Of a DNA stretch of 64,000 bases, positions 1,016 through 48,082 are shown one piece after another. The first letter of the stretch is position 1; the number at the start of each line of letters is the position of its first letter. The notes below the pieces were generated by a model. That model had not been told where the DNA came from, ran no database searches, and saw only the letters and a list, made by a program, of their open reading frames with translations. Where the stretch lies: NCBI RefSeq assembly GCF_022818495.1, contig NZ_CP089291.1:3675501-3739500 (forward strand). Reading direction: 5' to 3'. This stretch comes from Fodinisporobacter ferrooxydans (lineage in GTDB: Bacteria; Bacillota; Bacilli; Tumebacillales; MYW30-H2). The position numbers and the translations under genes were made by a program.

Positions 1016-1846
1016 TTACCCTTTGACAGCACCAGCCGTCAATCCGGATACGATCCATTTGCGGAAAATGATGACCAATATAAAGATCGGAATCACAGAT
1101 ACGACAGAACCCGCAAAAATCGTTCCATACGGCACATCATATTGGCCGCTGAACAACGCGATTCCCACCGGAATGGTGCGCATCGCATCGGATGAGTTGA
1201 ACACAAGGGCCATGAAAAATTCTGTCCAGGCAGCCACAAATGTAAAGACAGACGCTGTAAACAAGCCTGGCGTAGTGATCGGCAAATAAATCCGGTAAAA
1301 GGTTTGAAAAACGGTGGCGCCATCCACTTTGGCCGCTTCAAACAACGCTTTTGGCACTTGCAAGAAGTAATTGCGCATGATCCAAATGGCAAACGGCAAG
1401 TTAAATGCAACATATGGAACGATCAGCGCTTGATAGGAATTCAACCAGCCCAATGAACGAAGCAGCATGTACAACGGCGATATGATGGCAATCGGCGGGA
1501 ACATGGATATGACCAAAAGCACAATCATGATGGCCGTCTTGTTGCGGATCGGCAAGGAAGCGACAGCAAAACCTGCCATACTGGAAAAGAACAAGACAAG
1601 AAATGTTGAGACGATTGACACAATCACGCTATTGATGATGTACACCTGAAAATGAAAATGCGTAAACGCCTCCGTATAATGCTGGAACGTCCATTGTGTC
1701 GGCAACAGGGTTGGCGGATACACGCTGATTTCCGTGTTGGGTTTAAACGATGTGACGACCATCCAATAAAACGGAAGAATGATAAGCAACAGAAAAAAGA
1801 GCAAGACGAAATATCCGAACACTTTTCGCGATTTTGACTGGATCAT
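1016..1846 (-). CDS. Carbohydrate ABC transporter permease, MalG type
   Basis: This 276-residue inner-membrane permease has six predicted membrane segments. The conserved EAA loop that docks the ATPase reads EAAKVDGATVFQTFYRIYLP. It pairs with the MalF-type permease encoded just upstream and overlaps it by four bases (ATGA), which points to translational coupling. With the lipoprotein two genes upstream it forms the uptake system for a malto- or alpha-glucoside. No ATPase gene lies nearby, so a shared MsmX-type ATPase encoded elsewhere is likely (inference from Bacillus systems). Confidence 0.95.
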   Translation of the reverse strand: MIQSKSRKVFGYFVLLFFLLLIILPFYWMVVTSFKPNTEISVYPPTLLPTQWTFQHYTEAFTHFHFQVYIINSVIVSIVSTFLVLFFSSMAGFAVASLPIRNKTAIMIVLLVISMFPPIAIISPLYMLLRSLGWLNSYQALIVPYVAFNLPFAIWIMRNYFLQVPKALFEAAKVDGATVFQTFYRIYLPITTPGLFTASVFTFVAAWTEFFMALVFNSSDAMRTIPVGIALFSGQYDVPYGTIFAGSVVSVIPIFILVIIFRKWIVSGLTAGAVKG

Positions 1847-41972: not shown

Positions 41973-43091
41973 TCATCCGATCTCTTCATCGTATTTGTGT
42001 ACCAGAAAGTTCATTGTTTGGAGCAACTCAATTGCCTTCTCCATTTCTTCCAGCCGATGAAACTGCAAGACGAGTTGTCCGTTCACGTCTTCCCGGCTTT
42101 CCATAATGCCGATATTCCGCAAGTTGATTTCTTTCTCCGCCAAAAGTGTGGCAACTGTCGCAATCGCACCCGGACGGTCAGCCACATCGACTGTGCATTG
42201 ATACAATTCCGGCAAAGCTCCGCGCCTGCGAACAGGCAACGCGTCCCGCCAGTCTTTTGCCGATGCAAAAAACGCCTGCAAGGAGTGCTCTTGTTTTCCG
42301 CGGACGAAATTCCGGATCTCCGTACATGCTGCAATAAACTGTGTCATAATTTCATCCAATGCGTCTGCATTCGTTACCATAATATCGCGCCATAAATCCG
42401 GATTCCCGGAAGCAATCCGGGTAACATCCCGGAATCCCCCAGCTGCCAGTTGGGCGTAGAGGGGTTCCTGTTCGGCAAATCCGGATACGAACTGCACCAG
42501 CGTGGATGCGAGCACATGTGGCAGATGGCTGATCGTGCCGACGACCCGATCATGCAGCTTCGGATCCAAAATCATCACATTGGCTCTAAGCCCCTCAATA
42601 AATTGCCGCAATTTTTGCAAGGATTCAGGGTTTGTTGCAGCAGTAGGAGTCAAGACGTATTTGGCATTTTCAAACAAACGCTCATTGGCGGCACGCACAC
42701 CGGAACGCTCCGAGCCGGCCATCGGATGTCCGCCGATAAACTCGATCGTTTCCGGCATGCTTTGGGCTGCATATGCGCATATGTCCGTTTTCGTACCACC
42801 CACATCCGTAACGATCACACCGGGTTGCAACGGCATGTCGCAGAGTGTTTTTAAAATGGACAGGGTTTGTTTGACAGGCGTCGCAATCACAATCAAATCT
42901 GCGTTCTTCACGGCAGTCGGCAAATCTGTCGTGCCTTCGTCAATGACATGCAGATCGATGGCCATTTGCACCATATTCGGATCTACATCCGTGCCGACGA
43001 CCCGCTCCGCCAATTGATAGTAACGGCTTGCCACGGCCAGGGAGCCGCCGATCAAACCACATCCAATAACTGTTAGCTGCCGAAAAATCAT
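41973..43091 (-). CDS. tyrA: Prephenate dehydrogenase with C-terminal ACT domain
   Basis: This 372-residue enzyme makes 4-hydroxyphenylpyruvate for tyrosine. The Rossmann motif VIGCGLIGGSLAVA is at the N-terminus, the catalytic His lies in FIGGHPMAGSE, and a C-terminal ACT domain (DVADRPGAIATVATLLAEKE) suggests feedback control by an amino acid. The start at 43091 shares ATGA with the trpA stop. The 474-residue open frame upstream is an artefact of reading trpA out of frame. It ends the operon. hisC and aroE, found beside tyrA in B. subtilis, are absent. Confidence 0.96.
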   Translation of the reverse strand: MIFRQLTVIGCGLIGGSLAVASRYYQLAERVVGTDVDPNMVQMAIDLHVIDEGTTDLPTAVKNADLIVIATPVKQTLSILKTLCDMPLQPGVIVTDVGGTKTDICAYAAQSMPETIEFIGGHPMAGSERSGVRAANERLFENAKYVLTPTAATNPESLQKLRQFIEGLRANVMILDPKLHDRVVGTISHLPHVLASTLVQFVSGFAEQEPLYAQLAAGGFRDVTRIASGNPDLWRDIMVTNADALDEIMTQFIAACTEIRNFVRGKQEHSLQAFFASAKDWRDALPVRRRGALPELYQCTVDVADRPGAIATVATLLAEKEINLRNIGIMESREDVNGQLVLQFHRLEEMEKAIELLQTMNFLVHKYDEEIG

Positions 43092-43918
43092 ATCGCACCT
43101 TCGATCGCTTGTTTGCATGATCGAACAAAGGAGAGCAGTTCCTGGCGCAGTTCGAATGCTTTGCCGTGATCGCCTGCGTCTAACGCTTTGCCCAATTCTC
43201 CGATCCGGCGCACGATTGCACTGCCGATAATAATCGCATCTGCCCGATCGGCGAGCATGTTTGCTTGCTCCGGTGTGGAAACGCCAAATCCGACAGCTAC
43301 AGGGACTTGCGCATGATCTCTGACTGTATGCAGGAACACATCCAAATTGCTTGCAAATTTTGCTCGCTCTCCCGTAACGCCCAAAGAAGATACACAATAG
43401 ACAAATCCACGGGCGTTTTTACAAATCGCAGCTACCCGCTCTCTGCTCGTCGGCGCTACCAATGGAATCAGATCAATCTCATGCGCATCGGCAATCGCCA
43501 GCAATTCGGCGCTTTCTTCCATCGGCAAATCCGGGATGATCAGTCCGTTGGCGCCTACGTTCGCCGCCTGCCGGACAAAGGATTCCATGCCATATTGAAT
43601 GACCGGATTGGCATACGTAAACAAAATAATCGGTATTTCAATTCCGGATTTCCGGACATTGCTTACGATTTCAAACGCTTGCGGCAATTCGAATCCGTTT
43701 TGTAAAGACCGCAAGGAAGCCTCCTGAATGACAGGTCCATCTGCCAGCGGATCGGAATAAGGAATCCCCAGCTCGATCACATCCGCACCCGCCTCTGCCA
43801 ACTCCCGAATGAGTTGAACCGTCGTGCCGCAATCCGGATCGCCGGCAGTGATAAATGGTATCAGTGCACGGTTGCCATGTTCGAATTCCTGGTTAATTTG
43901 TTGTGCAATTCGGCTCAT
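43088..43918 (-). CDS. trpA: Tryptophan synthase alpha subunit
   Basis: This 276-residue TIM-barrel subunit cleaves indole-glycerol phosphate to indole and glyceraldehyde-3-phosphate. The catalytic Glu lies in [17 protein letters not shown], and the second catalytic Asp in [18 protein letters not shown] and GSAIVRRI form the phosphate site. It overlaps trpB by four bases. Confidence 0.98.
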
Positions 43919-45105
43919 TGCGCTCCCTCCAAATACTGTGCAATGCTATGCACGTCTTTGTCGCCGCGACCGGACAAACAGATGACCAAACGGCTGTCAC
44001 TGGGCAATGTCGGGGCGATTTTGACGGCGTGCGCAACCGCATGTGCGCTCTCTAATGCCGGGATAATGCCTTCTGTCTGCGTCAGCAATTGAAACGCATC
44101 GACCGCTTCCTGGTCGGTAATCGGGACATACTGCGCCCGCTTGCTGTCAAATAAATAGGAATGTTCCGGACCGATGCCGGGATAATCCAATCCGGCCGAG
44201 ATGGAATGGGCCGGTGTGACTTGTCCATAGCGGTCTTGCAAAAGATACGTCATGGCGCCATGAATAATCCCCGGGTTGCCTTTTGTCAAAGTCGCCGCAT
44301 GCCGGTCTGTCTCCACGCCTTCACCGGCAGCTTCCACACCAATCAGTCGTACGTCTGTATCTTCAATAAACGGATAGAACATTCCGATTGCATTGCTGCC
44401 GCCGCCGACGCATGCGACTACAACGTCAGGCAGACTGCCGAACAAATCAAGGGACTGCCGTTTCGTTTCGTCGCCGATGACCCGCTGGAAGTTGCGCACC
44501 ATCATCGGATAGGGATGCGGTCCTACGACAGACCCGATAATGTAAAACGTATCTTCCACATGCTCGACCCAATGGCGCAGCGCCTCATTGGTCGCATCCT
44601 TGAGCGTCCGCGTGCCGCTGCTCGCCGGAACCACTTCCGCGCCTAACATGCGCATGCGAAATACGTTCAACTCTTGCCGCGCCATGTCTTCTTCACCCAT
44701 GAACACTGTGCAGTCAAGGCCCAACAACGCGGAAACGGTGGCAGTTGCCACGCCATGTTGGCCGGCGCCTGTTTCTGCGATTACCCGTTTTTTTCCTGTA
44801 TACTTGGCCAGCAGCCCTTGTCCCAACGTATTGTTGATTTTGTGCGCGCCTGTATGGTTTAAATCCTCGCGTTTCAAGTAAATTTGGGCACCCTGCAACT
44901 GCTCGCTGAGACGTTTTGCATAATACAGCGGTGTCGGTCGGCCGGAATAGGATTGCAAAAGCTCTTTCAATTCTTCCTGAAATTCAGGATGTTTGGAATA
45001 GGCATAATAGTCCTTTTCCAACTGATCCAACGCGTTCATCAACGTTTCCGGCACATATTTGCCGCCAAATTTGCCAAACCGACCATATCGATCCGGATAT
45101 GTCAT
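43915..45105 (-). CDS. trpB: Tryptophan synthase beta subunit
   Basis: This 396-residue PLP enzyme condenses indole and serine to tryptophan. The PLP lysine lies in [18 protein letters not shown] and the phosphate loop in [23 protein letters not shown] is also intact. Its ATG overlaps the trpF stop by four bases, so it is coupled to its neighbour. Confidence 0.98.
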
Positions 45106-45743
45106 AAACTGTACACCCTCTCAAGTAAGGAAATCATAGATGGAAAACATTGCGTGCCGTCATCCCCTTCAATTCCTGATGAAACATCAATCAGATCGGG
45201 ATGATAGGCATGAATCAGCTCGTCCACATTCTGTATGCGGATCCCGCCTGCCACGATGAGCGGTAACTCCGGCAACAGCGCCCGGTACTCAGAGATTTTG
45301 GACCAGTCAAAAGGCTTCCCCGTACCGCCTGCCGCCTTCGGGTCATACGTATCCAGCAGCATTCCGTCAATGCTTCCACGATATGCAACAATGTCTGCAA
45401 CAGCAATCGACGAACGCACAGAAAATGCTTTCCATATTTTTTTTGGAAGATCCTCTGCCAAAGCAGAACAAAATTCCGGCGACTCATTTCCATGAAGCTG
45501 CAAAACATCCAATTGGCAGAATTCTGCGATTGTTTTGATTTCATCCTGTGAATGATTCACAAATACTCCGACTTTTTGCATGGATGAACCAAGCATGCGA
45601 GAAAGTTGTTGTGCCTGCTCCATCGTCACTTTTCGACGTGAATCTGCAAAAACAAAACCGACATATGCCGGTTGAATCGTTGCATCTGCCAATTGTCGGG
45701 CAATCGTCTGATCCCGCAGGCCGCATATTTTCACTTGCGTCAC
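45102..45743 (-). CDS. trpF: Phosphoribosylanthranilate isomerase
   Basis: This 213-residue TIM-barrel enzyme performs the Amadori rearrangement of phosphoribosylanthranilate. The catalytic Cys lies in VKICGLRD and the Asp in GMLLDTYDP. The C-terminal DVSSGIEG forms the phosphate site. Four-base overlaps join it to trpC and trpB. Confidence 0.97.
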
Positions 45744-46531
45744 TCGGCAGCCCCCCGCAATCTTTGCAATGCCAGACCGATGTCAGGAGAACGCATCAAC
45801 GATTCCCCTACTAGCACAGCATCCGCTCCATATCGTTGTACCTCTTGTATATGCCGGCGGGATTCAATCCCGCTTTCACTTACCAGCCAAACGTCATCCG
45901 GTACATCCTTTGAAATATGGAATGTCGTTGTTCGGTCGACTTGAAATGTGTGCAAATCCCGATTGTTGACACCGATGACTTTGGGATGGATCTGCATCGC
46001 CCGTTCCAACTCCTGCCGTGTATGCACTTCAACTAAAACGGCCATGCCCAATTCTTCTGCAACATTGTACAGATGTGCATATTGCGCATCGTCGAGACAA
46101 GCCATAATCAGCAAAACCACATCAGCCCCATGAGCCCGTGCTTCGATCACCTGCATTTCATCGATGACGAAGTCTTTTCGCAGCAAAGGCAGATCGACGA
46201 CTTTTCGAACTTCCGAAAGATAAGCAAGAGATCCTTGAAAATAGGAAACATCTGTGAGTATGGAAATCATGGCTGCACCATTTTCCTGATAGGTTCTTGC
46301 AATATCCAGCGGCTGAAAATCTTCCCGAATCAATCCTTTGGAAGGGGACGCTTTTTTGATTTCGGCAATGACGGCAACTTCTCCTGACACATGTGCCTTT
46401 GCAAATGCGTCAGAGAGCGACAATGGAGGCTTTTGTGCCTGCGCTCTTTGCAACAGTTCCTGAACGCTTGTCGTTTGCCGCAATTGACGCACTTCTTCCC
46501 GTTTCGTCGTTACAATCCGATCCAAAATCAT
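45740..46531 (-). CDS. trpC: Indole-3-glycerol phosphate synthase
   Basis: This 263-residue TIM-barrel enzyme closes the indole ring. IAEIKKASPSKGLIREDF carries the catalytic Lys and substrate site. LLRKDFVIDEMQVIEARAHG and GVNNRDLHTFQVD are typical. It overlaps trpD by four bases. Confidence 0.98.
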   Translation of the reverse strand: MILDRIVTTKREEVRQLRQTTSVQELLQRAQAQKPPLSLSDAFAKAHVSGEVAVIAEIKKASPSKGLIREDFQPLDIARTYQENGAAMISILTDVSYFQGSLAYLSEVRKVVDLPLLRKDFVIDEMQVIEARAHGADVVLLIMACLDDAQYAHLYNVAEELGMAVLVEVHTRQELERAMQIHPKVIGVNNRDLHTFQVDRTTTFHISKDVPDDVWLVSESGIESRRHIQEVQRYGADAVLVGESLMRSPDIGLALQRLRGAAE

Positions 46532-47583: not shown

Positions 47584-47657
47584 GTTCATCTCTCCTCTAC
47601 TCGACTCGACTATTCTGAATGGCTGATTCGATCGCGAATGAATCACGTCTTTATTAA

Positions 47658-47690
47658 GCAAAAAAGCCGGGACTTTGCTGAGCCCCGACT
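47658..47690 (-). terminator. Intrinsic terminator of the trp leader (attenuator)
   Basis: In the minus-strand transcript GTCGGGGC (47682-47689) and GTCCCGGC (47666-47673) pair over 8 bp, two of them G-U, around an 8-nt loop. A run of six T follows. It lies about 75 nt before trpD and after the GAG-rich region, so it can control read-through into trp. An upstream AGCCCC (47712-47717) can pair with GGGGCT of its 5' arm and would compete with the hairpin. Confidence 0.8.
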
Positions 47691-47769
47691 TTTATGAACA
47701 ATTCAAAGAATGGGGCTGAAGTCGAAAGCGGATAGACCGCCTGCCCATTGCTTATTGTATCAATTTTGT

Positions 47770-47871
47770 CTCTCATCTCAGCTCAACTCTATGGTTCAAA
47801 AGCAATGGAACCATCTCAACTTGTCAATACTCGTCTCAATCGTACTCTGCTCAATCATCTGGCATACTCTC
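47770..47871 (-). promoter_or_regulatory. GAG-repeat region of the trp leader, probable TRAP binding site
   Basis: On the minus strand four GAG triplets (47887-style numbering on the plus strand: 47787-47789, 47782-47784, 47777-47779, 47772-47774) follow each other with exact 2-nt spacers. Upstream lie six more at 47815, 47830, 47835, 47845, 47850 and 47867, two pairs again with 2-nt spacers. Between the two groups a 7-bp hairpin (ATGGTTC/GAACCAT, 47791-47814) would bring the groups together. Ten or eleven GAG/UAG triplets upstream of an attenuator is the known TRAP arrangement in Bacillus. mtrB is not in the window. Confidence 0.75.
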
Positions 47872-48041
47872 TGCAATCATTTCGGCAAAACGCAATCGAT
47901 CTCTGAAAATCTCGATCATTTTCACACGAGTTGCCTGTTTCAATCAATAGAATTCAAATGAAATACCACTCAAATGACAGCTCATATATCACTCAAATGA
48001 TCGCTCATCCAAGTGAACACAATCTTGTATAGGTCTTCTCT

Positions 48042-48047
48042 ATTATA
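48042..48047 (-). promoter_or_regulatory. Possible -10 box of a trp-specific promoter
   Basis: A consensus TATAAT lies on the minus strand 36 nt after the aroH stop, at the head of the roughly 450-nt leader. No good -35 hexamer is seen at 16-18 bp. The trp genes may therefore depend mainly on the promoter ahead of aroC. Confidence 0.35.
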
Positions 48048-48082
48048 TACGCATCAACACCAAATGAAAACCACTTCTTCGA

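Follow-up and report, generated by a model that had tools for sequence, protein, structure and literature searches.

TRAP, the product of mtrB, is a textbook example of an RNA-binding sensor, detailed knowledge of which comes from a small number of Bacillus species. The leader of the B. subtilis trpEDCFBA operon contains 11 (G/U)AG triplets and is subject to TRAP attenuation (PMC3913778, PMC4027176): once TRAP carrying tryptophan has wrapped the triplets, RNA polymerase halts ahead of the genes (PMC3913778). This single site serves both steps of control, as translation of trpE is also lowered, through a hairpin sequestering its Shine-Dalgarno sequence (PMC11255114). At trpG, trpP and ycbK of B. 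subtilis, TRAP bound to the start region blocks ribosomes directly (PMC11255114, PMC4347634). The trp leader of B. halodurans features 19 NAG triplets and is served by a 12-subunit TRAP, a ring size to which residues Lys15 and Asp71 have been linked (PMC3184956). Each of the TRAP targets described in these papers has one site.

The trp operon of Fodinisporobacter ferrooxydans, located in the window analyzed here (the whole stretch of 64,000 nucleotides, to which positions refer), appears to be organized differently: we estimate a probability of about 0.75 that it is controlled by TRAP and that a second TRAP site, over the Shine-Dalgarno sequence of its first gene, is functional as well. All features of the operon lie on the minus strand, in the order aroC-aroB-aroH, predicted promoter, leader, trpD-trpC-trpF-trpB-trpA-tyrA. 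The predicted promoter, TTTTCA-17-TATAAT (48042..48070), is found directly 3' of aroH and matches the consensus at 10 of 12 positions; a TTGACG-type promoter can be read by eye at the corresponding place in relatives. The first gene, trpD (TIGR01245; 46528..47583, preferred start ATG 47583), is overlapped by trpC (45740..46531), which is overlapped in turn by trpF (45102..45743), then trpB (43915..45105) and trpA (43088..43918), the last three named from sequence and position; the start of tyrA, coding for prephenate dehydrogenase (41973..43091), overlaps the trpA stop. That trpD comes first in the operon is explained by the location of trpE, which accompanies trpG in another part of the genome: the sole genomic match to the anthranilate synthase N-domain is behind trpG, about 680 kb away.

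A preliminary description of the leader had listed ten GAGs, a hairpin, a terminator and two complementary stretches, and all were found again at the same positions. To these can be added that the upstream GAGs of the first site share a 5-nt register. The first half of this site (47815..47852) comprises eight slots in one such register, five of them occupied by GAG (starts 47852, 47847, 47837, 47832 and 47817); the further GAG at 47869-47871 falls outside it. A 7-bp hairpin, AUGGUUC/GAACCAU (47791..47814, arms 47814-47808/47797-47791), joins it to the second half (47772..47789), composed of four GAGs (starts 47789, 47784, 47779 and 47774) with exact 2-nt spacers. Site 1 thus totals nine GAGs in 12 register slots, some slots not being GAG, and is split by the hairpin. 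When the leader was shuffled preserving dinucleotides, a chain of four was reached in 6 of 1000 cases. The proposal that the site might extend up to 48006 was not borne out: GAGs do exist between 48006 and 47969, but their spacing of 11–12 nt is not that of TRAP sites. This distance is due to a loose tandem repeat, TCATTTGAGTG, present on the minus strand within 47950-48010, near the predicted transcript start, in copies about 20–25 nt apart.

Between the triplets of site 1 and trpD lies an intrinsic terminator, AAAGUCGGGGCU-CAGCAA-AGUCCCGGCUUU followed by a U run (about 47659..47692), with a 12-bp stem of -17.3 kcal/mol; a simple terminator scan did not list it, because of different stem-length and tail settings. 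Two pairings with parts of this terminator had been suggested, based on GCTGAG (47782-47777) facing CTCAGC (47682-47677), and on AGCCCC (47717-47712). The former, GCUGAG:CUCAGC, is seen in a truncated fold of the free transcript, while equilibrium folds show no clean switch. The latter, AGCCCC:GGGGCU, appears only in a truncated fold with masked triplets, and so does not resemble an antiterminator of the TRAP-free state. Folding the leader with and without masked GAGs, as had been proposed, turned out to be non-discriminating, the terminator being predicted in all states (P about 0.99). Over the 14 genomes of the order, masking the triplets, compared with random masks, produced no consistent free-energy shift toward or away from the terminator.

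Conservation of a GAG-antiterminator helix was evaluated in seven relatives and is unsupported: 15 of 15 pairs are found in three closely related leaders, 9–10 of 15 in the other four, so that the helix is kept only within one genus. In the same seven relatives, the hairpin located between triplets and terminator features two pairs changed on both sides.

Since T-box and leader-peptide attenuation are both known at trp operons of other bacteria, and the present leader does have a terminator, the GAGs could in principle be incidental to one of these mechanisms. No T-box or other Rfam family scores at gathering level in the window, however, although another locus of the same genome does give a T-box, and no leader ORF contains more than one Trp codon. 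Lacking an Rfam match in the window and tandem Trp codons, both mechanisms were rejected as highly improbable.

A second series of triplets, absent from the preliminary description, runs up to the start of trpD. This site 2, UAG-UC-GAG-UC-GAG-UA-GAG-GA-GAG (47590..47612), proceeds by exact 5-nt steps and contains the trpD Shine-Dalgarno sequence (GGAG, 47595-47592); it is separated from site 1 by about 157–160 nt, including the strong terminator. A chain of five over the Shine-Dalgarno sequence was reached in only 1 of 1000 dinucleotide shuffles of the leader. Five KAG pairs at 5-nt distance precede the trpD start, as compared to at most one for each of the 46 other genes in the window, and to a mean of 0.04 for 28 other ORFs in the loci of relatives. 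The strict pattern KAG-N2-KAG-N2-KAG-N2-KAG has six matches in the 4.86-Mb genome, five of them at trp genes: two overlap each other at site 2, one is in site 1, one precedes trpG-trpE and one covers the start region of a second trpB; the sixth falls within an unrelated gene.

All 14 genomes of the order contain trpD leaders with a GAG/UAG series and an intrinsic terminator. KAG distances, pooled over these leaders, peak at 5, 10, 15 and 20 nt, with 75 pairs observed at 5 nt versus 25 expected, a value reached in none of 300 shuffles. Long chains are found in the leaders of some relatives (nine triplets in G007, seven in G010). Most genomes of the order also keep the series over the trpD Shine-Dalgarno sequence, which is found again in a second family (f11); in the Shine-Dalgarno regions of the order, too, the pooled distances peak at 5 and 10 nt, and nearly so at 15. 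In F. ferrooxydans this series is limited to five triplets, in G002 it is weak and in G006 absent, while in G010 about ten GAGs are found at the trpD start.

Purine-rich Shine-Dalgarno sequences favour some GAGs on their own. It might be that TRAP binds site 1 alone, and that the trpD start has a strong, purine-rich Shine-Dalgarno sequence whose GAGs are periodic by chance. This would be in line with the location of the core AGGAG inside the series, with the lack of a Shine-Dalgarno series in G006, and with the chains of equal length often obtained from composition-preserving shuffles of single relatives. When relatives are pooled, in contrast, the peaks at 5 and 10 nt were unreached in 300 shuffles keeping the triplets; almost no 5-nt KAG pairs precede the starts of other genes in the same genomes, and the G010 series reaches far upstream of any Shine-Dalgarno sequence. 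A chance origin is accordingly considered unlikely, and the second site is probably functional, to judge from its spacing and recurrence.

The number of triplets raises the further question of how many rings are involved. The nine GAGs of site 1 and the five triplets of site 2 are each fewer than the 11–12 of a full ring, so a single ring might bind both series as two halves, only the read-through mRNA being fully bound; the presence, in genus g12 of family f11, of one hairpin-split site over the Shine-Dalgarno sequence could be seen in the same light. Such a ring is argued against by the distance between the two series, about 157 nt with a strong terminator in between, and by the G007 and G010 leaders, whose chains would by themselves suffice for a ring of their own. 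We regard the shared ring as quite improbable, and the two series as probably separate sites.

Outside the order, mtrB was found in 210 of 300 genomes of the class, and TRAP-type series at trpD-first operons were seen in several other families. The series is confined to the leader in G018, G065, G221, G230, G244 and the f48 pair, and to the Shine-Dalgarno region in f25; both are present in many f11 genomes. In f11, where the pattern described above is repeated in 21 genomes, the 5-nt peak amounts to 75 pairs versus 18 expected in the Shine-Dalgarno regions, and to 80 versus 27 expected upstream. Genus g12 of this family has almost no upstream series; over the Shine-Dalgarno sequence it features GAGs, a GC-rich hairpin and more GAGs, thus resembling site 1 of F. 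ferrooxydans. This independent occurrence renders plausible the earlier suggestion of a split site bridged by a hairpin. A contig scan using a single trpD protein as query was uninformative, returning only seven distant loci.

These data suggest, somewhat more probably than the opposite, that a double lock is conserved on trpD-first operons of at least two families, consisting of an attenuation site and a site over the Shine-Dalgarno sequence of the first gene; in one genus the two would be fused into one site, split by a hairpin, on the Shine-Dalgarno sequence, and other families would lack one of them.

The regulator presupposed by the preliminary description is encoded in the same chromosomal region, about 5 kb past the window end (mtrB; PF02081, 136 bits). 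The 75-residue MtrB matches solved TRAP structures over nearly its full length and keeps the RNA-binding residues Lys37, Lys56 and Arg58; Lys15 and Asp71 are also present, while residue 72 is Ala, not Thr. Within the order, mtrB was found in 12 of 14 genomes, the two others being fragmented assemblies. A homologue of anti-TRAP (rtpA), whose presence had also been suggested as a check, was found on the plus strand (L087 1501-1671; G000:C1:4581439-4581606; 80.7 bits), the only one among the 14 genomes. No T-box is present in the 1.5 kb upstream of it; whereas rtpA of B. subtilis is under a tRNA-Trp T-box, here the T-box is found on an EamA transporter gene instead.

That EamA gene (L121, minus strand; G000:C1:4068152-4068184) combines a T-box leader (Rfam, 118.6 bits), whose specifier was read by eye as UGG (Trp), with GAGs over its start, an arrangement like that of B. 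subtilis ycbK. A search of the genome allowing two mismatches in the pattern yielded this ycbK-like site and two unconvincing ones. The trpG-trpE leader features seven GAGs with 2–4 nt spacers; masking them raises the predicted Shine-Dalgarno hairpin from 0.07 to 0.72, but random masks in that stretch do likewise, so that the hairpin is consistent with TRAP without being specific to it. A second trpB-like gene (PALP fold, 397 aa; L008 about 1480-1530, minus strand; G000:C1:4635190-4635207) displays GAG-TT-TAG-A-TAG-CT-GAG-GC-GAG-CA-GAG in its Shine-Dalgarno region and is possibly a new TRAP target, one that the cited literature does not mention. The putative regulon would thus include trpG-trpE, the T-box/EamA gene and possibly the second trpB.

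Similar series were observed at other genes of relatives. GAGs also cover the trpG Shine-Dalgarno sequence in the trpG-trpE operons of G002 (L073/L086), G004 (L075) and G001 (L085); in G002 and G004 a second series is found upstream of it, and the double arrangement may for this reason not be confined to trpD. A gene similar to DAHP synthase/chorismate mutase features GAGGAGAGGAGAG-TTGAG/ATGAG over its start in G007, G008 and G010 (L065, L066, L068), which may reflect TRAP control of the initial step in aromatic biosynthesis, or simply a strong Shine-Dalgarno sequence. In G006, a genome where mtrB was not found, about eleven GAG/UAG triplets at 5-nt steps precede a methyltransferase-like ORF (L064/L077, G006:C28:1966-2011, minus strand).

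Tryptophan control of the operon through TRAP, proposed in the preliminary description, withstood both of the checks named there for its refutation and is supported by mtrB, by anti-TRAP, by the conserved triplets and terminator, by the 5-nt periodicity, and by GAG series at further expected TRAP targets of this genome, trpG-trpE and the EamA gene; on these grounds, control of the trpD operon by TRAP is very likely. Some points weigh on the other side: site 2 is short, equilibrium folds show no TRAP-dependent switch, and mtrB was not found in two of the 14 genomes, both fragmented assemblies. In its sequence, the leader bears the hallmarks of attenuation as well as of ribosome blocking. In the mechanism we propose, with ample tryptophan a TRAP ring would bind site 1, and RNA polymerase would stop before trpD. 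On transcripts escaping termination, TRAP bound to site 2 would block the ribosome directly, as on B. subtilis trpG, trpP and ycbK. Because each gene of trpD-C-F-B-A-tyrA overlaps the next, such a block should, by coupling, also reduce expression of the genes that follow. Anti-TRAP would probably relieve TRAP.

The two-site trpD operon makes it possible to ask whether the same sensor acts in two successive steps, first on RNA polymerase and then on the ribosome, what share each step has, and whether one ring or two are bound. Across families, the leader-only, double, fused and Shine-Dalgarno-only arrangements represent a ready natural series, in which one may trace how a single RNA-protein control is rebuilt when an operon is without trpE.

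In the literature searched, no mRNA with two TRAP sites is described; since Gutierrez-Preciado and colleagues (2007) was not included in it, earlier notice of the arrangement is possible. Judging from its sequence features, the arrangement represents TRAP control in a modified form rather than a system of a new kind. With the B. subtilis trp leader it shares triplets mostly 2 nt apart, a downstream intrinsic terminator, mtrB and anti-TRAP; it differs in having trpD, not trpE, as first gene, in the hairpin splitting the series and in the second series on the Shine-Dalgarno sequence. Site 2, in turn, covers the Shine-Dalgarno sequence and would block ribosomes directly, like the sites of B. subtilis trpG, trpP and ycbK; unlike them, it shares its mRNA with a terminator-coupled site. 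As in B. halodurans, triplets exceed the need of one ring, and MtrB shares Lys15 and Asp71; unlike in B. halodurans, the extra series is found about 160 nt downstream, past the terminator, on the Shine-Dalgarno sequence.
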